DNA of 20,842 bases from a virus. The position numbers were made by a program, and so were the translations under genes. The notes below the pieces were generated by a model. That model ran no database searches. It saw only the letters and a list, made by a program, of their open reading frames with translations, and was not told the DNA's origin. The stretch is from positions 1-20,842 of the IMG/VR virus record IMGVR_UViG_3300025809_000163; one strand, written 5' to 3'. Shown here piece by piece: positions 5,275 through 16,937 of this stretch. How positions within the stretch are numbered: the stretch's first letter is position 1; the number at the start of each line of letters is the position of its first letter.

Positions 5275-5513
5275 GGTGCTGTTCCTCTTTCTTTCTTATC
5301 GAATATTGCCTCGTCTGCAAATACAGTGTTGAAGTAATCTTCGATCTTGTCTAGCGCCCTGATTATATCATGCGCATCGTTAATAGCCTCTAATTGAGAC
5401 TGGCCGTTCAGAAATACACTTACTTGTGCATTCCGAATCTCTTTTATGACTTCCTGATAGGTGTCGTCATTACTCAGCGTCCGTATCTTGGCCGCCTTGT
5501 CTTTTATGTTCAA
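5250..5513 (-). CDS. Small conserved protein between portal and scaffold
   Basis: An 87-residue, mainly helical protein (IKDKAAKIRTLSNDDTYQEV, then LEAINDAHDIIRALDKIEDYF). I do not know its function. It sits between portal and scaffold, and small proteins in that place are common in phages with this head module. The start is TTG (5511-5513), overlapping the portal stop as TTGA; no other start codon occurs before the conserved-looking body, so TTG is the only choice that keeps the protein. No strong ribosome site is visible, which suggests translation by ribosomes finishing the portal. Its end overlaps the scaffold start by 25 bases. Possibly a minor head-assembly factor. Confidence 0.78.
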   Translation of the reverse strand: MNIKDKAAKIRTLSNDDTYQEVIKEIRNAQVSVFLNGQSQLEAINDAHDIIRALDKIEDYFNTVFADEAIFDKKERGTAPWKRLIPK

Positions 5514-7606
5514 AATCTACCGCCAGTTACAGCTTGTGCAGGTGACTCTGCCGGGTATCGTGGCACGTTCTGCATTTGCTTGATTTGGGCAACGTCTACG
5601 GCTGTACCGTACTTGCCAAGTATCTCCGCAGCGTTAACCAGGAGGTCTTGGTCCATCTTATCACGTTCTCGGTCATCTGCAGCAATAGCCTTTTGCGCAT
5701 CAATCTGCAGCTTCGCCATGTCGGTCTGAGACTTAGCCTCGGCCTTCATCTGCTCTGCCTGGAGGTAAGCGGTTGCCTGGTCCATTTGTGGCTGCTGCTC
5801 CTGGCCTTGCTGCTGCTGTGCTAGTAGCGCCTGCTCTTGCTCTGGATTCATCGGCGTAAAGTACCTGTCAGCGTTTCTAACGCCATTTAGCGCTAGCATG
5901 TCTGCCAGGGTATTGCGTATCTGTGTCATCGTCACAAGGCCATTCCCTGGGCCGTATGCCTGGAATATCTGCATCTGCATCTGCAGGGCTTGAGTCAGGG
6001 CAGCGTTACGCTGATCTTCCCGGCCAGTACCCAGGCCAACATTGACAGAGGTATCCATCTTCTTGTTCCAGGATCGCGGATCGACGGGGATATAGTCCTC
6101 GCCACTAATGCGCATAATCTTTTCTTCATCGCAGTTCTCGATCACCAGCTTCAGCATCAGCTTAAACATATGCCGAACACCGCCTTCTGCCAGGTTGCGA
6201 GCCATGACTTCAATCTGACCTGCAGCTCCCTGCATAGTAGCCTGGACCGCAGTTGCAGTAGTTGCCTGCAGCGCATCTGGATTAAGCCCTAAACTGGCCT
6301 TTGAGATGCCTACTTTCTGCTCAATAGTCGTGTCATAGTATTCGATAGCCGCTAGCGTTTGATTGGCTACAAATGGCACTGAAAGGGGCTGTATTGCCCC
6401 TCCCTGACGTACCCGAACGATACCGCCGATCTCATTGTTCAGCATGTCGTCCATGTTCACCGCGCCATCAATAACCTCGGTGCGGGGGTGGTTAGTCAGC
6501 GCCACGTTGTCCAGCACGCCACGGATCATCATGGTGGCTGCGTCCTGGTCCTCAAACAGCAGGTCAGCAATAGACTTGCCATAGAACGTATGCGGCTCAG
6601 GGTCTATCTCAAAAGCAGCAAAGGGCTGGTCACCCCAGGGCTCATAACTTAGTAGCTGATACTCGCTGCCGCCTAGTACGACTTTCTGCATCTCTGCAAC
6701 GCCAGTGCCGTTAGTGTCTATCTTCATGTACAGCTCGGTCAGAGCTACAACACGCATAGATGGGTCCATAGGGTTTTCTGACTGATAGTCCTGCTCATAG
6801 CCTCGGCGCTCGTAGTCCTCAACCTCAGAGAATGTGTCAGAGTGCCCTAGGCCGGACATCTCAGATACAACGTCAAAGTCATACCCCATAGCCACCAGGT
6901 CACTTACTCGGACCTCAGTTCTGTGGCCAACAACGTAAGCGGTCTCGATGCTCTTTGCGTTACGATCTATAAAAAACTCTTCTGGCGGTACAGCCTCAAC
7001 ACACAAGTCACCCATCTCTCTGATCTTGCTGACCTTGAGGTCGTGACGTGGCATCTCTACCTCTGCGCCAAACTCATCCAGCTCAATCTCTATCTTTGTG
7101 GTGTGCTCGATAACCTCAACGTCCTGCTCGTTAACAATGGTCGAAAACTCCATGTCGTTCAGGTTGTTAAAAGTGTAAGTCTCGCTCTCGTCGTATGTAT
7201 CCCAGTAGACCTTTACGATGCCTGTCTTCTTTAGCAGGGCATCATGGAATACATCGTTCAATACGTCGTAACCATTAAGCTCCTGGAACTTGTACTGTAT
7301 GTACTTAGTGGCCTGCTCGGCAAACTTGATGTCTTCTGGGCCGGTAGGGACAAACTCAACCGGGCGATCAGTAGACAGGAATACACGCAGCAAGCTGGGC
7401 TTAATAGATCGTATAGCGTCACGCACCTTTGTAGATACGACGCTAGATCGGCCTTCTTCCTCACCGATATCTACCTCGCCGTTGTAGTAGCGCTGGGCCT
7501 TAATACGGTCCTCAGCCACTTCACTCTCAACAAAGTCAACAGCGTCCAGGATGGCCTCGCGGGCAATGTTTTCTACGTCATCTGCTTCTAATGGTTTTAG
7601 TTCCAC
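5510..7606 (-). CDS. Portal protein, P22-like
   Basis: A 698-residue portal, close to the length of P22 gp1 (725). It should form the ring at the capsid vertex through which DNA is packaged and ejected. Recognisable pieces include YNGEVDIGEEEGRSSVVSTK (near 42-61), then VRDAIRSIKPSLLRVF, the HDALLKKTGIVKVYWD segment, and GKSIADLLFEDQDAATMMIR before the long stem helices. After NADRYFTPMNPEQEQ the last ~110 residues are Gln-rich and coiled-coil-like, fitting the barrel helix that points into the head. The start is GTG with GGAG eight bases upstream, three bases after the stop of the 631-residue gene. Portal-small protein-scaffold-capsid is the usual head order. Confidence 0.93.
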   Translation of the reverse strand: MELKPLEADDVENIAREAILDAVDFVESEVAEDRIKAQRYYNGEVDIGEEEGRSSVVSTKVRDAIRSIKPSLLRVFLSTDRPVEFVPTGPEDIKFAEQATKYIQYKFQELNGYDVLNDVFHDALLKKTGIVKVYWDTYDESETYTFNNLNDMEFSTIVNEQDVEVIEHTTKIEIELDEFGAEVEMPRHDLKVSKIREMGDLCVEAVPPEEFFIDRNAKSIETAYVVGHRTEVRVSDLVAMGYDFDVVSEMSGLGHSDTFSEVEDYERRGYEQDYQSENPMDPSMRVVALTELYMKIDTNGTGVAEMQKVVLGGSEYQLLSYEPWGDQPFAAFEIDPEPHTFYGKSIADLLFEDQDAATMMIRGVLDNVALTNHPRTEVIDGAVNMDDMLNNEIGGIVRVRQGGAIQPLSVPFVANQTLAAIEYYDTTIEQKVGISKASLGLNPDALQATTATAVQATMQGAAGQIEVMARNLAEGGVRHMFKLMLKLVIENCDEEKIMRISGEDYIPVDPRSWNKKMDTSVNVGLGTGREDQRNAALTQALQMQMQIFQAYGPGNGLVTMTQIRNTLADMLALNGVRNADRYFTPMNPEQEQALLAQQQQGQEQQPQMDQATAYLQAEQMKAEAKSQTDMAKLQIDAQKAIAADDRERDKMDQDLLVNAAEILGKYGTAVDVAQIKQMQNVPRYPAESPAQAVTGGRF

Positions 7607-7609
7607 GTC

Positions 7610-9505
7610 TTACTCCTGGAAAAAGTTTGGCACATTTGAGTTAGGGCCACTTGGCACTTTTGCGCCTTGCTGCGCACCTGCCGTCCTGCCTGCTTGAGCA
7701 ATTGTTGCCGCAGCTTTATCTACTTTTTTCAACAATTCGCCAAATACAGTATTATCCTTCAATGCTCGCTCTACCAGCTCTGGCGACTCACTATACAATA
7801 TTTTGGCAACTTCGACCATTTGTCGGTCAGACAATCCCTCACCAGATGGGACCATGTTAACAGCAAGTTTAATCATAGCTAGAGGATCGCCACCCATACC
7901 CCTGGCAACATCATCCATCGAAACGCCGCCACCGCGCAACTGGGCTTCTCTTTGCAGCGCCTGCGTCATTGACTGCGCTCTTGGCTGTATTAACTTGTCC
8001 ATTGAGGTAGCCTCAGCCGCTCTAGTCACATCTTGCACCACTCTCGCTGCTTGCTCTTCTGGCAATAAAATTCTTAAAACGGTGCCAAGCTGCATATCTT
8101 CTTTAGCAAGATTTTCAATTGTGGTTCCTGACCTACGAGCCTTATCGTTAATGTTGGCCATTGCGCCAGCTCTAAAAGCTTCTAGCTCAGCTGTATTTAG
8201 TCTGCCAACTAAAATTTCAAGCTCATCAGCGTTCATGCTTAAAGCCTTGCGGCCAGCCTGAAACATCTCATTCTGAGACATCATGCCAGCATATTGAGCC
8301 CTGGCTTGACCTAAATCTGGGCTGGTTTGATCAATTGCGCCCCTTAAAGTTTTTTCTTTTGCTCCAAGCACCTCGCCCATAGTGCCTTCGCCGGCTTTAT
8401 ACCTAGCTCCAGTCTGTTCTTTAACATTGCGCCGGAGTATTTCGGCATCTTCTAAATTTGGCGCTCGCGTAAACTGAATTGAACCGTCTTCCATTTCTCT
8501 AAATAACGGAACAATGCTCCTTGCTTCGTAGATTTCTTTTAATGCCTGGCGGCTTGTAGGCACGGTTTGCAATATATTAAGCATCTCATCCGCAACCTCC
8601 AAAGTTACAGTTTGGCTTTCTGGCCGCGCAAACACTTCACCGTATGCCCCGCTTCTATCTTCTTTCAGCCCTTCTTCAGTTGCAGCCCTTGCCCTGAGTA
8701 TATTTGGATCAGAGACATCTGGAGATAATGCCCCAGACATAGACTCACTGGCTTGCCGGGTTGTGGCTGTTCTTCTGGCCTCGCTTGCGCTTAGTATTGT
8801 TGGTTTAACTTCACCGCCCTCGGTAACCATGCCTTTAATTGCAGCAGTTAGCGTGGCGTTATCTGCCATAATTCTGCCGCTGGCAACGTCTTGAACTATC
8901 TCATCAACAGTCAACCCGGTCGCCTCAGCTAGACGCAAAAGCTCTTTCTGTACTGCAGTGTCGGCGCCTTTCATTTTGCGCCTTGCATAGTCAATAACAG
9001 ATCTTCCTAGCCGTCCCAGCTTGCCCATAGCAACTTCTGCGGTTGTTCCAGCAGCAGTACCTACAGCAGTTCCTAGACCAACGTCTTGCACTCCCTGCCC
9101 GCTAAACATGTCAGCTTCAGATGAGCCTATTGCGGTTAATGCAGATTCTCCTGCAGCCACTTTTGCAATTCGAGCTAAATTAGACCCTGCGGCTGGAGCT
9201 CCAACGCCAGTCATGGACATCATAACAGACGGAATGAAAGCACCAGCCACTTCTAGGGTGATAGCTTCGCCAGGGTTTGCTGTCTTATATTCTGTCAGCT
9301 TGCCCCTTAATTCATCCCTAATGACCTCATAGTCCCTGCCGCCCATCGACTCAGGAAGAAGTGATTTTACTGCGGCTTCGATCTCATCTGCAAAACCAAA
9401 AGATAAGCCTTGGGCGACAGTTCTAAGTTTTTGGCTTTCAACAGGACCTTGTGCTATCGCTTGCGGCCTGTACTTCGCTAGTATCTCTTCTTTGGTTCTA
9501 GCCAT
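7610..9505 (-). CDS. Putative DNA-ejection / internal virion protein
   Basis: A 631-residue protein that I place among phage internal or ejected proteins by pattern. Residues 28-50 (LRTVAQGLSFGFADEIEAAV) followed by YKTANPGEAITLEVAGAFIP (73-92) resemble the conserved front end of large phage virion and tape-measure-like proteins. A hydrophobic stretch (82-108) and a Gly/Ala zipper (about 138-166: GVQDVGLGTAVGTAAGTTAE) could insert into the host membrane, as ejection proteins do. The remainder is a long helical body. A polar Ser/Pro/Asn end follows. No lysozyme or transglycosylase motif is visible. The ATG overlaps the preceding stop as TAATG. Its place just before the portal, in a row of virion proteins, fits a particle component; the pore role is inference. 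Confidence 0.7.
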   Translation of the reverse strand: MARTKEEILAKYRPQAIAQGPVESQKLRTVAQGLSFGFADEIEAAVKSLLPESMGGRDYEVIRDELRGKLTEYKTANPGEAITLEVAGAFIPSVMMSMTGVGAPAAGSNLARIAKVAAGESALTAIGSSEADMFSGQGVQDVGLGTAVGTAAGTTAEVAMGKLGRLGRSVIDYARRKMKGADTAVQKELLRLAEATGLTVDEIVQDVASGRIMADNATLTAAIKGMVTEGGEVKPTILSASEARRTATTRQASESMSGALSPDVSDPNILRARAATEEGLKEDRSGAYGEVFARPESQTVTLEVADEMLNILQTVPTSRQALKEIYEARSIVPLFREMEDGSIQFTRAPNLEDAEILRRNVKEQTGARYKAGEGTMGEVLGAKEKTLRGAIDQTSPDLGQARAQYAGMMSQNEMFQAGRKALSMNADELEILVGRLNTAELEAFRAGAMANINDKARRSGTTIENLAKEDMQLGTVLRILLPEEQAARVVQDVTRAAEATSMDKLIQPRAQSMTQALQREAQLRGGGVSMDDVARGMGGDPLAMIKLAVNMVPSGEGLSDRQMVEVAKILYSESPELVERALKDNTVFGELLKKVDKAAATIAQAGRTAGAQQGAKVPSGPNSNVPNFFQE

Positions 9506-10779
9506 TATTGAGCAGCCTCTAGGTAATCTTTTCTGTCCTGGTTAGACATTTCACCCCATAAAGCATACGTCATGCCAGGGTCGCCAGCTGGGTACTGAGC
9601 AGTGATGGCTGTTGCAGCATTTATCTCGTCCTGCATATCGTTCATATATTGCCCAAGACCAATACCGCTCTGCAGCTTCCTGCCCATCTTTGTCATCTCT
9701 CGATACAGCTTGTTTTGCGCAGCTATCTTTTCGTCTAAATAGTTAATTAGCTTCTGGCCTTTTAAGCTGTTAGGGATGTCCCTACTTAAAGCTAGGTCTA
9801 GCTCTCGCTCGCTTAGCGCACCAAACGTGGCGCTGTTAATTACATCAATACCAAGGGTGGTTCTAAGTGAGTTAAACATTGCAGTGTTTTCGTCAAACGC
9901 AGGCAAAAACCGCTTAATCCAACCAGTTTGAACGCCTTCTGGGGACGCAGCTAAATCCCTGGCTTGCTTCATAATATCGATAGATCGATTAACCTGTTGA
10001 GACTGGTCAAATACTTTCTCGCCTCTCTCTCTTGCGGCTTCAACGTCAGCAAGTTTAAATTGAGATTCACTTTCAAATTGCGCTTTTGCCTGAGAAGTCA
10101 CTCCTCGCGTGCCTAGTTTAGTAACAGAGTATCCGTCTTCTGCATTAGGATCGTAAGTAATAACGTACTGATCGCCAGCCTTAAGCTGCGTATCGCCGAC
10201 CGTCATGTCTTCTTCTGCAACCTGGATTGATCCGATGTTTTTAGAGGCGTAGCTGGTGCCCATTTTCTTCTTTGTAAACTCAGCAAGAGCATCTTTTGCA
10301 AGGGCTGGATTAGCCTCAACCATAGCGGCAAGCTCAGGCTGTCCCTGCTGTCTTAAATAAGCGGCAGTCTGGTTAGCCTGCGAGGATACTGTGCGCATCT
10401 TCTGACGGTCAGCATAAGCCTGCTGTATGCCTGCATCTGGAGCATAGCGCATACTGTTAAATGCTGCAGCCAGGTCCATCATGCGGTCCTTGTCCTGCAC
10501 AAAGTCCTGAACGCCACTGCCGATACGAGACAATAGCCCTGGCTTCTCCTGGGGAGCTTGTGGGGCTTGTGGCATCTGTAGGGGCTGCATTGGCTGCATT
10601 GCCTGCGGTATTGTGGCAGCAGGCATCATGCTCTGATTTACAGCGCTCTGTATGTTATTGACAGCGCCTGGCTGATAATTAGCCCCAGGCATCTGTGGCA
10701 TCTGTGGAAGCTGCTGTGGGCCAAATGTGCCCATTGCCTTCAAGCGCTCCATCTCAGCCTGCATTTGTTCTGGTGTCAT
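9505..10779 (-). CDS. Putative internal virion / ejection protein with Gln-Pro-Met-rich N-terminus
   Basis: A 424-residue protein in three parts. Residues 18-80 are low-complexity Met/Gln/Pro. Residues 100-175 are a helical domain (AAAFNSMRYAPDAGIQQAYA, then AYLRQQGQPELAAMVEANP) of a kind I recall from uncharacterised aquatic phage virion proteins. After a short beta module (about 183-223), residues 263-365 are helical (SIDIMKQARDLAASPEGVQT; then SATFGALSERELDLALSRDI), again a recurring virion or injection-protein domain. No membrane segment or enzyme motif is seen. The start overlaps the preceding stop as ATGA, with GGAG upstream. It shares a PGA(V/I)(N/D)N motif with the neighbouring 167-residue protein. 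Best guess is an ejected or tail-hub component. Confidence 0.65.
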   Translation of the reverse strand: MTPEQMQAEMERLKAMGTFGPQQLPQMPQMPGANYQPGAVNNIQSAVNQSMMPAATIPQAMQPMQPLQMPQAPQAPQEKPGLLSRIGSGVQDFVQDKDRMMDLAAAFNSMRYAPDAGIQQAYADRQKMRTVSSQANQTAAYLRQQGQPELAAMVEANPALAKDALAEFTKKKMGTSYASKNIGSIQVAEEDMTVGDTQLKAGDQYVITYDPNAEDGYSVTKLGTRGVTSQAKAQFESESQFKLADVEAARERGEKVFDQSQQVNRSIDIMKQARDLAASPEGVQTGWIKRFLPAFDENTAMFNSLRTTLGIDVINSATFGALSERELDLALSRDIPNSLKGQKLINYLDEKIAAQNKLYREMTKMGRKLQSGIGLGQYMNDMQDEINAATAITAQYPAGDPGMTYALWGEMSNQDRKDYLEAAQ

Positions 10780-11280: not shown

Positions 11281-13617
11281 TTATAATCCCTTGTAAAGCT
11301 CGCCGTATTTCACAGCCTTGTATCCAGACGGGGTAGTAACGACCATCTCAGGCATTACACTCTCAACTTCCTGGGCCATTACACCCAATGTCATGCTACT
11401 GCTTAACCCTTTCTCAACAGCCTCATCATTCCAATCCCAAGTATACAAGCCTAATCCGTTTGGAAGATGGCCTACTTGGTTTATATTGGTTTTAAGACGG
11501 GCGTCGGACATCGCCGCCATCTGAGCGGCCATAGTCATGTAGTCCATAGCGCCAAGGTTTTTCTGCGTGGTTTGACTCTGGGGTATTGGAGCCGCGCCAA
11601 GAGCCTGTGACAGTAATCCGATAGATGTGTACGGAGCCTGCTGGTAGCCCTGGAACTGAGCCTTAGCTGCGTCGATAAGCTGCTGTTGTAGAGCCTGCTG
11701 TAGCATACCCTGCTGCTGTAGGTTCTGGTTAACCGTCTGTCCCATGCCGAAACCAAGGTTAGACAGTGAGCCCAGTTGACCTGCCGCGCCAAGACGCTGC
11801 GATGAGCCAGTAAGACCTGCAGCCTGGTTAGCAAGCTGTGCCTGAAGAGACTGTGAGGCGTTAAACTGTCCAGCCTGGTTAAGTGCTGACTGGTTCGCCA
11901 AAGCCGCCTGATTAGCTGCGCCTGCGCCAAACTGCGATGCCTGGTTAAGCGCTGCCTGATTAGCCAGGGCTGCTTGGTTCGCGGCAGATGCCCCAAACTG
12001 AGAAGCCGCCTGCTGTTGCGCTGACGCCTGGGCCATAGCCTGGTTCTGAGCAGCGGCACCGAATTGTCCTGCCTGATTCAATGCTGCCTGGTTAGCTAAG
12101 GCTGCCTGGTTGGCTGCTGACGCACCGAACTGAGAGGCTGCTTGCTGCTGTGCTGACCTCTGTGCTGCGGCCTGATTAGCTGCTTGAGCACCAAACTGCG
12201 CGGCAGCCTGCTGTTGTGCAGATGCCTGTGCAGCGGCTTGGTTCTGAGCCCCTGCGCCAAACTGTGCCGCTTGATTCGCTGCAGCTTGATTAGCAAGAGC
12301 AGCCTGATTGGCAGCAGATGCGCCAAATTGACTTGCAGCCTGTTGTTGAGCAGATGCTTGCGCTCCAGCGACGTTGCCAGCCTGAGCGCTAAACTGTCGA
12401 GCCTGGTTCTGCGCAGCCTGGTTGGCAAGAGCCGCCTGGTTAGCAGCGGATGCACTAAACTCACCTGCACGCATGCCAGCCGCCTGATTGGCCAGGGCTG
12501 CTTGCTGTGCCAGGTTAGCGCTAGTAGTGCCAGCCTGTAGACCCGCCTGCTGGTTAGCAAGGCTAGCCTGCATTCTGCCAGCAATGTCTTGTTGCGCCAT
12601 GCCCTGGGCTTGAGTAAATCCAGCCTGACGTAACTGACCTGCAGATCGTGCGGCCTGTTCGGCAAATGCGCGATTAGTCTCGGCCTCCATCAAAGCCTGT
12701 CGAGAGCCACCAAAAGCACCTGCTGCGCTTGCTTGAGCTCCAGCTTGGCCCATTGATATCTGTCGGGCGCGATCTAGGTCAGACAGTGTAGACTGCACAA
12801 CCTGGCTTTCATAAGGGTTGTAATACTGACTTAGGTCAGTGCCAGCTAATTGGCCAGCCGTCACATCTCTGGACGTTACTGTCGGTGCGCCGCCTAATCT
12901 TTCTGCGCCGAATCCAGTTGCCCCAGTGCGAGCAGCGTCATAACCCTGAGCGCCGAGTCCAGCAGCCTGGAATCCAGTAGCGCCTGCACGCTCTGCGCCA
13001 TAGCCCTGAGCGCCTAGCCCAGCAGCTTGGAAGCCCTGAGAGCCAACATCTGCGGCACCAAAGCCAGTGGCTCCAGCCTGAGCTGCACCATAGCCTGTTG
13101 CGCCTACATCAGCACCCTGGAACCCTCTAGCGCCAGCTTGTGCCGCGCCGTAACCTTGTGCGCCAGTCTGAGTTGCCCGATAGCCAGGAGACCGCACGTT
13201 CATGGGCTGATAGTTCATCTCTCTAGCAGCGCCAGCCATAGCGCCCTGAATACCCTGCGCGGCACTCTGATTAATATTTGGAGCTTGCGGAGCTTGCTGT
13301 TGCTGCTGCTGTACGCGACCGCCAGCTTTACCGCCGCCACCAGGCCGTCCGGCAGAATCCAGCACTTGCGGCATAACGGGAGGCGCCAGCTTAGGTCCAG
13401 ACTGTGGCGTAGGAGTCCTTTTGACAATTAAATCGCTTGGCGGCCTTACAGGGCCTCCTACATTCATTACATTCTCATCTTGCGGTACTGGGCGCTGTCC
13501 TGGCGGTTCCGTTACTGACGGGCCATAGTTAACCTGAGATGGGGATATAGGGCCAGGCTGCATTCTTTGCTGTCCAGCCATGCCTACTTGTTGTGGTACA
13601 CCGTTACCTGAAGCCAT
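11281..13617 (-). CDS. 778-residue repeat protein with C-terminal S74 (intramolecular chaperone) domain
   Basis: Likely a long virion fibre or tail appendage. Layout: Pro/Gln-rich N-terminus (1-140); nine 10-residue repeats of form xGAxG(Y/F)xxxx (151-240) preceded by a degenerate one; a helical linker (about 250-340); ten 22-residue Ala/Gln/Asn repeats in perfect register (386-605), with two degenerate units before them (342, 364); a Gln/Leu-rich helical region; and a short S74 domain from S704-D705 (MSDARLKTNINQV) through GVMAQEVESVMP to the end. S74 domains trimerise and fold phage fibres, then often cut themselves off at the Ser-Asp site. Here only about 75 residues remain, shorter than in endosialidases. 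Strong GGAGG ribosome site; TAATG overlap with the gene before. Fibre role is inferred from S74 and repeats. Confidence 0.75.
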   Translation of the reverse strand: MASGNGVPQQVGMAGQQRMQPGPISPSQVNYGPSVTEPPGQRPVPQDENVMNVGGPVRPPSDLIVKRTPTPQSGPKLAPPVMPQVLDSAGRPGGGGKAGGRVQQQQQQAPQAPNINQSAAQGIQGAMAGAAREMNYQPMNVRSPGYRATQTGAQGYGAAQAGARGFQGADVGATGYGAAQAGATGFGAADVGSQGFQAAGLGAQGYGAERAGATGFQAAGLGAQGYDAARTGATGFGAERLGGAPTVTSRDVTAGQLAGTDLSQYYNPYESQVVQSTLSDLDRARQISMGQAGAQASAAGAFGGSRQALMEAETNRAFAEQAARSAGQLRQAGFTQAQGMAQQDIAGRMQASLANQQAGLQAGTTSANLAQQAALANQAAGMRAGEFSASAANQAALANQAAQNQARQFSAQAGNVAGAQASAQQQAASQFGASAANQAALANQAAANQAAQFGAGAQNQAAAQASAQQQAAAQFGAQAANQAAAQRSAQQQAASQFGASAANQAALANQAALNQAGQFGAAAQNQAMAQASAQQQAASQFGASAANQAALANQAALNQASQFGAGAANQAALANQSALNQAGQFNASQSLQAQLANQAAGLTGSSQRLGAAGQLGSLSNLGFGMGQTVNQNLQQQGMLQQALQQQLIDAAKAQFQGYQQAPYTSIGLLSQALGAAPIPQSQTTQKNLGAMDYMTMAAQMAAMSDARLKTNINQVGHLPNGLGLYTWDWNDEAVEKGLSSSMTLGVMAQEVESVMPEMVVTTPSGYKAVKYGELYKGL
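11284..11508 (-). other. S74 intramolecular chaperone domain (second copy in window)
   Basis: Residues 704-778 of the repeat protein. Ser-Asp at the domain start, RLKTNI, WDWNDEA and GVMAQEVESVMPEMV are the S74 landmarks, matched by SDEREKKNI and [14 protein letters not shown] in the tail fibre at 18717-20825. The copy stops directly after the core, without the helical tail seen in that other protein. Confidence 0.8.
11803..12462 (-). repeat. Ten tandem 66-bp units (22-residue coding repeats)
   Basis: Ten units of exactly 66 bases, each beginning (Q/E)F, with no insertion or deletion. Two unit types recur: one with ASAANQAALANQAALNQ, the other with AGAQNQAAAQASAQQQ. Their order is A-B-A-B-B-A-B-A-A plus a diverged last unit. 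The 22-residue length equals two 11-residue (hendecad) helical repeats. Two degenerate units extend the array upstream to 12594. Confidence 0.93.
12898..13167 (-). repeat. Nine tandem 30-bp units (decapeptide coding repeats)
   Basis: Nine 10-residue units such as AGATGFGAAD, LGAQGYGAER and VGSQGFQAAG in perfect register (protein residues 151-240). A weaker unit, VRSPGYRATQ, precedes them. The fixed features are Gly-Ala at positions 2-3, Gly at 5, Tyr or Phe at 6 and Ala at 8. This is a different repeat class from the 22-residue array in the same protein. Confidence 0.92.
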
Positions 13618-14400: not shown

Positions 14401-14769
14401 TCATATATCCTTGCTAAGTGTCGTGAACGCCTCGGTCCACCCTTTGCTTAATAAGACCCTTGCCCAGCCTCTACGGCCAGCAACAGTCATGCCCGTGCAT
14501 CCTTGCTGTCTTGCAAACTCTACCGCCGACTCGTCCATGTCAACTATCTGATTCTTCTCGCCACCCGCCAAAAAAATGTGCAGCACTTTCTTCCTGGGAA
14601 ACGATATTATCTCTGTAACAGCGCAGCCGTGTTCTGCTGGCCAAAACTGCATGTATCCGTTCTTTATGGCTTCAACAATGTCCTGGTACTCGTGCGTCCC
14701 GCCACTGTACTCCAAGGCTGCCTTTATCCACTTCTCGCAACGATCTAGCTCTTCTTGTAAATCTGCCAT
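14401..14769 (-). CDS. GNAT-like small protein of the virion gene cluster
   Basis: A 122-residue protein. Residues 10-20 (RCEKWIKAALE), YQDIVEAIKNGYMQFWPAEH (28-47), VTEIISFPRKKVLHIFLAGG (51-70) and FARQQGCTGMTVAGRRGWARVL (85-106) follow the strand-helix order of a small GNAT acetyltransferase fold. The GRRGWARVL end resembles the final helix-strand of that fold. I recall close relatives in podoviruses annotated as acetyltransferase or internal virion protein A. The usual acetyl-CoA pyrophosphate loop (Q/RxxGxG/A) is not evident, so the protein may be structural rather than catalytic. Preceded by a 33-base gap containing an extended -10 promoter sequence and a GGGGGA ribosome site. Confidence 0.68.
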   Translation of the reverse strand: MADLQEELDRCEKWIKAALEYSGGTHEYQDIVEAIKNGYMQFWPAEHGCAVTEIISFPRKKVLHIFLAGGEKNQIVDMDESAVEFARQQGCTGMTVAGRRGWARVLLSKGWTEAFTTLSKDI

Positions 14770-14802: not shown

Positions 14803-15462
14803 TTATTGACGGCTTCTGGTTATTGTAAGGTCAATTGGCTTGGACGCTGGCGCAAAAGATGTTGCGGCAGACCCATCAAGCCATAAATCGGTATCACTAA
14901 CCGCAAACCTTGCCTGCATATAAGAGCCTGCAGTTACCTCAACTTGATCACTAACAGCCAAGACAATAAACTGATCGTTAGCATGCACCGTAACCCTTTC
15001 TGAGTGGTCCAGGTTTGTGCCATTAACAGCCATCCAATAATACGCTGTCTTCGTTGATCCGCTTGACGATTTAAGCTGCAGGTGTCCCGCAATAGAATAC
15101 ACCCCCGCTTCAGCAAACCTAATTTTTGTATTATCGCTGGGATCAATGCTCAATCCACCATTAGCGCTTACCGACGTAAACGATATATTGTACGCAGTGT
15201 CTGCCGACGCCGCAGTAATGCTGCTGGTGGCTGAAAACTCACCATAACCGTCAGCTAATACAATTTGCCTAAACTCACCATTCTTGGATATTACCGGGTA
15301 ACCAGTTCGGTCCCACAATACGACGCCATCTTCTGCCGCCGTATCACCCGCTATGTAATAGGCCAGCTTGGTTTTAGTCCTGGCTAGAAAGCTAACAAGT
15401 CGCTCTCCCCAGGGCTTCCATTCTGGACCTAACGGGGGTGGCGGGTTCTCAGCCAGGCTCAT
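14803..15462 (-). CDS. C1q/TNF-like fibre or capsid-decoration protein
   Basis: A 219-residue protein in two parts. Residues 1-72 contain PPPPLGPEWKPWGERLVSFL and a short beta segment (VLWDRTGYPVISKNGEFRQI), a phage attachment-type N-terminus. Residues about 88-214 form a C1q/TNF-type jelly roll: AYNISFTSVSANGG, IRFAEAGVYSIAGHLQLKSS, YWMAVNGTNLDHS, ANDQFIVLAVSDQVEVTAGS and a final beta strand. Such domains trimerise and serve as fibre tips or head decoration in phages. The ATG overlaps the stop of the gp10-like gene as ATGA. A host-recognition or particle-stabilising role is likely; which one cannot be told from sequence. No collagen-like stalk is present. Confidence 0.8.
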   Translation of the reverse strand: MSLAENPPPPLGPEWKPWGERLVSFLARTKTKLAYYIAGDTAAEDGVVLWDRTGYPVISKNGEFRQIVLADGYGEFSATSSITAASADTAYNISFTSVSANGGLSIDPSDNTKIRFAEAGVYSIAGHLQLKSSSGSTKTAYYWMAVNGTNLDHSERVTVHANDQFIVLAVSDQVEVTAGSYMQARFAVSDTDLWLDGSAATSFAPASKPIDLTITRSRQ

Positions 15463-16937
15463 CGCTTGCCGCCTGGGATTACATTAAGCCGCATCTTGCC
15501 TGCACGCCAATCTTTAAGCTCGGTGCCATTAATACGCATCCTGACCTGGCGACCACTAAACCTGGCGCCTGTTGGGTTAGCAAGAGCGAACGGCCCGTGG
15601 CTAACTTCTGAGTCATTAGGGTAGAACCTGGTCTTAAAGGTCAGGGTAACTTCGCCCTGGTTAAGCTCGTCCGGGATAATCTCATTTACTTTGGCGATCT
15701 GATCGCCCTGAGCAATCGATATAGGTCCACTCTCTAGGAATGTCTCACTACCATTGTGTGAGTACCCGGTCTCATGGTTTAGCACGTTACCAGAGGTATC
15801 AAACATAATAGGGTTAGTGAATACGCCTGCATCAACTGCAGAGCTGCGAGATAACTCACCAATGTTCCAGTGGCCTTCCTTGTAGTCGAACACAACGTAT
15901 CGGTCGTTCTCTAGAGAGTCGGCGCTGGGGTAGAACCACCACACCTCACCAAACTGAGAGTTGTTGACTGCAAACGCCTTGCTTTTCTGGGCGTGGTTTA
16001 TGTCCTTAAAAACGTGATCTGAGACATCGCAGGGCATTTCCTGTACAGATGATCCGTTGTAGGTAAAGAAGCTCTTAGAGCCCATCCAGAAGGCTCCCTC
16101 GTCCACCGCAACTGCAGCCATGCGAGATATGGTGCCGCAAGATGTACCAACTCGCTGGAAACCATAAACAGTTGGCGGGCCATTGTATGTGGCAACGTGC
16201 GCGTCCAGGGAGGTTAGGATAAGTGTACGGCCCCTTACTCGGATACCGCACATAATCTCGCCAGAGGTCTGCAGCTCAAGATCACCAGCCTGGTTAATCG
16301 CTGTAGGCGTCCAATCTGTGTTGTCTTCTCTGTCACACCACTTTACAAGGCGCGGATTACTGCCTGCACCTAGAGCAAATATAAAGCGCTCTTCAGTAAC
16401 AACAATAGCGCCATTGCCTACAGGGGCATTTGTAATTGCTGCAGCGGGGGTGCCGGTATTTAACTGCCACTCGTATATCTTGCCGTCCTTTGATGAACAG
16501 GCGATCAAATATTGACCCCAGGTATCCATGGACCAGGATGTGGCCTCTTCTGGCACGCCGTCACTAGGACGTTCTGTGCTGTAGTAAGAGGTGCCATAGA
16601 ACGATCCGCCATAGCCAAGATTCTGGTCTGCGTTAAGGTCGCCAGTGGTAAAGCTAGTAGGGGTAATGTCAGAAACCGTACCCACTTTATTAACGTGGTA
16701 CAGCTTTTCATAAGTACCTGCCGCGATGTGGGAGTCTGCACTGTTGTCAGTCCATGTAATAGCGCCTCTGGGGGCGTAAGTGAATGCACTGGCCTTACGG
16801 GTAGTCCAACCGCCAACAGGCCGCACAGAGCCATTCTGCCACCTTATGAGGTTGGCATCTCGCCACCGGCCTACAGAATCCAGGTCAGTACCATGCTTAA
16901 AGATACCTGCTGGAATGTCTACGCTAACATATGCCAT
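15459..16937 (-). CDS. Tail/head-closure protein resembling P22 gp10 (stabilisation protein)
   Basis: A 492-residue, almost all-beta protein. The start, VDIPAGIFKHGTDLDSVGRW, then RWQNGSVRPVGGW, is a signature I associate with podoviral tail or stabilisation proteins. Repeated strand pairs with Trp and Tyr (SWSMDTWGQYLIACSSKDGK, then LVKWCDREDNTDWT; MAAVAVDEGAFWMGSKSFFT; DRYVVFDYKEGHWNIGEL) suggest a beta-propeller, which is the known fold of P22 gp10. That protein joins the tail hub below the portal, closes the filled head and holds the needle and spikes. Length is close to P22 gp10 (472). AAGGAAG lies before the ATG. With a P22-like portal in the same operon the role is well supported. Confidence 0.78.
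   Translation of the reverse strand: MAYVSVDIPAGIFKHGTDLDSVGRWRDANLIRWQNGSVRPVGGWTTRKASAFTYAPRGAITWTDNSADSHIAAGTYEKLYHVNKVGTVSDITPTSFTTGDLNADQNLGYGGSFYGTSYYSTERPSDGVPEEATSWSMDTWGQYLIACSSKDGKIYEWQLNTGTPAAAITNAPVGNGAIVVTEERFIFALGAGSNPRLVKWCDREDNTDWTPTAINQAGDLELQTSGEIMCGIRVRGRTLILTSLDAHVATYNGPPTVYGFQRVGTSCGTISRMAAVAVDEGAFWMGSKSFFTYNGSSVQEMPCDVSDHVFKDINHAQKSKAFAVNNSQFGEVWWFYPSADSLENDRYVVFDYKEGHWNIGELSRSSAVDAGVFTNPIMFDTSGNVLNHETGYSHNGSETFLESGPISIAQGDQIAKVNEIIPDELNQGEVTLTFKTRFYPNDSEVSHGPFALANPTGARFSGRQVRMRINGTELKDWRAGKMRLNVIPGGKR

Follow-up and report, generated by a model that had tools for sequence, protein, structure and literature searches.

A candidate DNA ejection protein of a marine bacterial virus with a hendecad arm that appears to vary in length by 11-residue steps

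The repeat-bearing gene and its surroundings

The window, i.e. the whole stretch of 20,842 nucleotides of the viral record IMGVR_UViG_3300025809_000163 that was analysed, encodes a 778-aa protein with two tandem arrays, a conserved core domain and a C-terminal S74 intramolecular chaperone (ICA) domain (Table 1). The larger array was described in a first-pass annotation as ten 22-residue units in exact register, and autocorrelation and unit alignment bear this out: every unit opens with (Q/E)F, there are zero indels among the ten, and for lags 22 and 44 the identity autocorrelation of the protein has z scores of 11.2 and 14.7, respectively (versus 500 shuffles). The two decayed leading units reported with it were recovered in the same register. 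The 220 residues of the array comprise 87 Ala, 52 Gln, 21 Asn and 10 Phe, three charged residues, a single Val and a single Thr, and neither Ile nor Pro. Two unit types are indeed present, while their supposed alternation is partial (ABABBABAAA). A resemblance to antifreeze proteins was rejected, as the type I protein has an 11-residue Thr-Ala repeat, whereas a single Thr occurs among the 220 residues of the array, and the context is unrelated.

The smaller, decapeptide array is of the type G-x-x-G-[YF]-x-A and shares period-10 G-[FY]-x-A repeats with Legionella DotG/IcmE (phmmer E 1e-20), a likeness that is below the Pfam cut-off (PF25296, 19.6 against 45 bits) and possibly due to compositional bias. 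In alignment A1 the core domain has invariant Y265, N267, D280, G303, G304, S305 and R306, and it is 40-51% identical to array-free phage proteins (MW202496, MJing1, CV-1-33). Among the ten window proteins scanned, no long-tail or tail-tube genes were recognised. The slot of the GNAT-like protein is annotated as acetyltransferase in DB2 and as GNAT in CRP-902, and a 219-aa protein at 14803-15462, in tail position, gave a weak BclA C-terminal-like (C1q/TNF-like) match.

Table 1. Position of the features in the window, with the residues of the 778-aa protein and the basis of each assignment.
Feature	Position	Strand	Residues	Basis or remark
Array protein (P0001), 778 aa	11281-13617 (ORF)	minus		proposed ejection (pilot) protein, P22 gp7 / T7 gp14 slot
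Pro/Gly-rich N-terminal linker	13279..13617	minus	1-113	length free among relatives; AlphaFold pLDDT below 50
Second array, decapeptide, period 10	12883..13212	minus	136-245	autocorrelation at lags 10-50
Conserved NPY ... AFGGSR core domain	12700..12882	minus	246-306	alignment A1
Hendecad region	11776..12717	minus	301-614	length 5 mod 11, no Pro, helix in AlphaFold
Two decayed units, same register as array	12463..12594	minus	342-385	starts at residues 342 and 364
Ten regular 22-residue units	11803..12462	minus	386-605	repeat analysis
Conserved segment, array to chaperone	11509..11775	minus	615-703	ICA-less relatives stop at or near its end
S74 intramolecular chaperone (ICA)	11284..11508	minus	704-778	Pfam PF13884, E 1.5e-9
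Neighbour of array protein, 260 aa	13617..14399	minus		PHROG 4287, E 8.6e-7 on its residues 4-73
GNAT-like small protein upstream of the neighbour	14401..14769	minus		phrog_22172
Virion structural protein, position of P22 gp10-type tail protein	15459..16937	minus		phrog_3287
Downstream protein, 424 aa, second-ejection-protein slot	9505..10779	minus		position only
Last-ejection-protein slot, 631 aa	7610..9505	minus		phrog_5880; relative in roseophage CRP-902
SU10-type portal protein	5510..7606	minus		PF23899, E 1.3e-195
Separate S74-ending tail fibre, 702 aa	18717-20825			Gly-Asn-Val-Gly-Ile-Gly repeats

Age of the array and gain and loss of units

DNA identity between array units is 76% at most for any pair, and codons at identical residues agree as often (0.394) as codon usage predicts (0.408), so that recent duplication leaves no trace and synonymous sites between units are saturated. 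Three contigs from other metagenomes (L025, L027, L042) carry the same ten units in identical order, with 88-98% DNA identity between orthologous units and 56-76% for the best non-orthologous ones. An assembly artefact was rejected on account of this one-to-one match in separate assemblies and, together with the saturated synonymous sites, the match marks the array as old, stable and under protein-level selection. Unit number varies among relatives, where the first-pass annotation had suggested looking for it: close relatives lack units 5-7 (L017) or units 3-4 (L004) or have two additional units (L011), and other relatives differ by half units, single 11-residue half units being present. Change is therefore not confined to 44-residue pairs, and the proposed growth by duplication of such a pair was not upheld. 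In the related contig L001, the gene of which otherwise matches that of the window, a single-base difference at codon 313 of the array protein turns GAG into an in-frame TAG, either a variant or an assembly error.

Period and length of the repeat region among relatives

We read 18 diverse representatives in one continuous phase from AFGGSR and determined the information that phase carries on the residue, which amounted to 0.917 bits modulo 11, 0.992 modulo 22 and less than 0.07 at every other period tested. F-F spacings within the arrays of relatives are 11, 22, 33 or 44, and the hendecad consensus is [A/Q]-x-A-x-N-Q-A-x-[L/Q]-[F/A]-[N/G]. By this comparison, the true family-wide period of the repeat is 11 instead of 22, in agreement with the earlier remark that 22 equals two hendecads.

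The length of the region was taken as the distance between AFGGSR and the conserved QL that follows the array; in the window it spans 313 residues from AFGG (28 x 11 + 5). In a first set of 50 distinct sequences, 48 had a length of 5 mod 11 (148 to 643 residues), a count that includes L066 and L068, in which the end anchor lies inside the array and which are invalid as support; of the two exceptions, L026 is truncated where its contig stops and the other is array-free. For a second set, the rule was reworded with a broader end pattern after a few new genome-contig sequences had been seen; it held in 37 of the 40 scorable new sequences (60 to 467 residues), the other 22 of the 62 sequences lacking an end anchor and being left unscored. 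Of the three exceptions, two (L127 and L137) appear mis-anchored. As the sequences in both sets are related, neither count represents independent trials. Array-free proteins in the second set, with anchor distances of 60 and 71 residues, also obey the rule. As a control, we took the N-terminal linker in these proteins; its lengths (3-260 aa) are spread over the residues mod 11, and the decapeptide stretch has its own preference, mostly 3 mod 5. No period-11 signal was found in the other window proteins or in SU10 gp19-24. As measured between these sequence anchors, the arm thus varies almost only by 11-residue steps in more than 80 related proteins, from 60 to 643 residues. In-register recombination could account for part of the preservation of the phase; the phase is shared by array-free and array-bearing lineages, which argues for a structural register besides recombination. 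An annotated ejection protein of Pseudoalteromonas phage H6/1 (gp17, L085), which has an S74 domain and matches phrog_598, shows a weak lag-11 signal (z 3.9), and judging by this protein hendecads may be more widely spread.

Predicted fold of the hendecad region

The hendecad stretch contains no Pro in 5,324 residues, versus 5.6% outside this stretch in these proteins. A first AlphaFold run placed helices at residues 304-448, 478-538 and 544-632, with breaks, and a run on a crop gave a nearly continuous helix; in both, confidence was low (array pLDDT roughly 50-74, pTM 0.20-0.24). In the first run, helix and coil with no strands were predicted before residue 709. Hendecad positions 2, 6 and 9 (Ala, Ala, Phe/Ala) fall on one face, and Asn and Gln predominate at positions 4, 5 and 10. 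The hydrophobic moment of the hendecad profile singles out no helical angle and is no proof of a helix, and a Foldseek search of the model against the PDB gave zero matches with E <= 0.001, the best hit being the ICA domain of MyRF. From the two low-confidence models and the absence of Pro, the arm is probably helical. The 330 angstrom given in the first-pass annotation for a fully helical array finds no support as a single helix; the models draw mostly helix, with breaks.

We weighed three other views of this region. S74 domains are commonly preceded by beta-solenoids, and one built from coils of 22 residues, in which Asn would form ladders and Phe a stack, would suit the coil length, the aligned Asn and Phe and the adjoining S74 domain, but with so little Val, Thr and Ile in 220 residues, half-unit steps of 11 and helical models in both AlphaFold runs we regard it as hardly probable at all. 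An 11/3 amphipathic helix that, like those of alpha-synuclein, perilipins or LEA proteins, lies on host membranes or inserts into them is very improbable as well; 11-residue repeats and an Ala/Phe/Leu face would fit, and ejection proteins must meet membranes, but Lys/Arg or acidic residues are nearly absent from the repeat (3/220) and the hydrophobic moment is weak. Low pLDDT, low complexity and the widely variable unit number could also indicate unstructured Ala/Gln/Asn-rich filler or an aggregation-prone tract, loosely packed in the head and devoid of a defined fold. Disorder does not, however, explain one 11-residue phase over 60-643 residues, nor fixed Asn, Gln and Ala positions with Pro wholly absent, nor amino acids that are conserved while synonymous sites are saturated; we hold this explanation unlikely. 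Prion-like aggregation was considered and rejected.

Relation to known ejection proteins

Residues 481-774 of the array protein match PHROG 4287 ('DNA ejection protein') with E 3.7e-13, a match that is partly due to S74. The same PHROG is matched by SU10 gp21 and gp22 (E 1e-118 and 4e-109) and by the array-free relatives MW202496 (2e-32), MJing1 (7e-16) and CV-1-33 (5e-5), and array-free homologues of the core match it along their length. In MJing1 and MW202496 the N-terminal domain of the 260-aa neighbour and the NPY core are fused in one protein (profile of the neighbour's domain: E 3e-9 and 6e-8, respectively), so the 778-aa and 260-aa genes look like one split ancestor; the same profile had no match in the fused deep-branch proteins (L049 and others). 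By these profile matches, PHROG 4287 is the joint counterpart of the 778-aa protein and its neighbour. When alignment A1 was compared directly, profile to profile, with SU10 gp21, gp22 and gp23, no signal emerged, and the link to SU10 thus runs via the PHROG and the array-free intermediates; an NCBIfam search returned nothing useful. SU10 gp21/gp22 and other PHROG 4287 proteins (Kuravirus) resemble the window family in PHROG, portal family and ejection gene cluster; unlike SU10 gp21/gp22, which are free of hendecad and decapeptide arrays and show no signal at period 11, the window family is split in two genes and has S74.

The gene sits in an ejection cassette of the short-tailed phage type, and its position in the cassette agrees in H6/1, PVA1, DB2 and MW202496. 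It shares with P22 gp7 and T7 gp14 the position upstream of two larger ejection-protein slots, while those proteins are about 200-240 aa and have no arrays; a direct sequence match to either was not found. According to its annotation, gp27 of phiM5, composed of the NPY core and an S74 chaperone, was detected in the particle proteome; it directly precedes three internal virion proteins. For SU10, gp20-24 are reported to be present in the virion and lost once the genome is released (PMC9509320), and ejection proteins in general, including P22 gp7, gp16 and gp20 are needed for DNA delivery and dispensable for assembly (PMC4992974). On family profile and gene order, the array protein is most likely carried in the head and injected, and would help the DNA to cross the cell envelope.

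The C-terminal chaperone domain

S74 domains usually chaperone trimeric beta-helical fibres. The first-pass annotation had thought of a phage fibre, and a trimeric tail fibre or tailspike, with the array as shaft and S74 as the chaperone folding it, would account for the domain and for public records (L082, L091 and hits H1, H66 and H75) in which family members or their S74-bearing relatives are called tailspike, tail fibre or S74 peptidase. These annotations, however, apparently follow the S74 domain alone. Four close relatives (L017, L018, L028, L042) have no S74 and stop at the expected cut site or no more than about 3 residues from it, the C-termini of S74-less relatives being ...GAGMFS, ...GAGMYS, ...GASII and ...LAAS; L014 and L028 have nearly identical cores, one with S74 and one without, and the tree requires at least 3 changes of S74 gain or loss. 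Furthermore, upstream of the ICA no beta-helix or receptor domain was predicted (Pfam, and AlphaFold at low confidence), the gene is part of the ejection cassette, and a different gene of the window encodes a tail fibre with S74. We therefore consider a fibre improbable; family profile and synteny, as well as proteome annotation in relatives, favour an ejection protein instead.

The S74 domain itself was modelled with pLDDT of about 70-90 and has SD-x-R-x-K with a Ser704...Lys709 dyad, the spacing of which parallels MyRF S587/K592 and endoNF S911/K916 (PMC8326128). It thus resembles S74/ICA tail fibres and MyRF in its C-terminal position, motif and dyad spacing, and differs in that the part before it is predicted to be a helical arm and that close relatives can do without it. 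The domain is predicted to cut itself off, leaving mature residues 1-703, and seems to be optional in the family. An array-poor family member with S74 (L095) comes from a bacterial isolate (Enterovirga aerilata), where it lies on a contig of 375 kb, possibly in a prophage.

Proposed mode of action

Starting from the array identity, the 11-residue rule, family membership, synteny and S74 gain and loss, all supported by the data, we infer an oligomer and a conduit in addition to the helix and the self-cleavage. With moderate confidence we favour the reading that the 778-aa protein and its 260-aa neighbour constitute an ejection protein whose helical hendecad arm bundles into a DNA conduit. The protein would be packed in the head near the SU10-type portal and released ahead of the DNA. 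After its conserved NPY ... AFGGSR core would come an arm of alpha-helical hendecads, each making 3 turns in 11 residues. Helices would pack against one another through the Ala/Ala/Phe positions, and the fixed Asn and Gln would form uncharged amide surfaces. Several copies could bundle into a helical barrel that extends the tail across the envelope, and the DNA would slide past its amide-lined wall. The arm would grow and shrink by whole hendecads only, because other changes would break the packing register, and the S74 domain would serve as an optional folding aid that removes itself.

The nearest parallel in design, by analogy rather than homology, is the H-tube of phiX174, a decameric tube of hendecads and heptads in which 18 of 23 lumen positions are N, Q or R (PMC7354561). 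Common to both are hendecads with Gln/Asn at fixed positions and, as proposed here, a role in DNA passage; protein H differs in having 3 hendecads and then heptads, in being charged and in belonging to a different virus group, and a tube in the window family is drawn from it by analogy. A PDB sequence search with the array protein gave only DotG up to E = 1, and no homology to H. Tape measure proteins have 11-residue units marked by W/F (Belcaid et al. 2011; PMC3271669), and the array protein shares with them tandem 11-residue units, an aromatic marker and gain and loss of units; in contrast, it belongs to a podovirus ejection cassette and its F comes mostly every 22 residues.

Significance

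Ejection proteins are essential, poorly understood, fast-diverging and often misannotated. Ejection proteins, hendecads and S74 domains are each already known; within a partial coverage of the literature, we came across no published ejection protein whose hendecad arm varies widely in length and does so in quantised steps. We also entertain, as a doubtful extension, that the hendecad number is a length ruler which sets the reach of the injected conduit in short-tailed phages. If so, each hendecad step would add about 16.5 angstrom if fully helical, lineages would tune the conduit to the host envelope in 11-residue steps, and the protein would be the tape measure protein's counterpart in podoviruses. 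The 11-residue rule is open to direct test by structure and length mutants. An arm that ranges from 60 to more than 600 residues, nearly always in steps of 11, is a natural experiment on how short-tailed phages construct their DNA conduit, and may also bear on whether conduit length matters.
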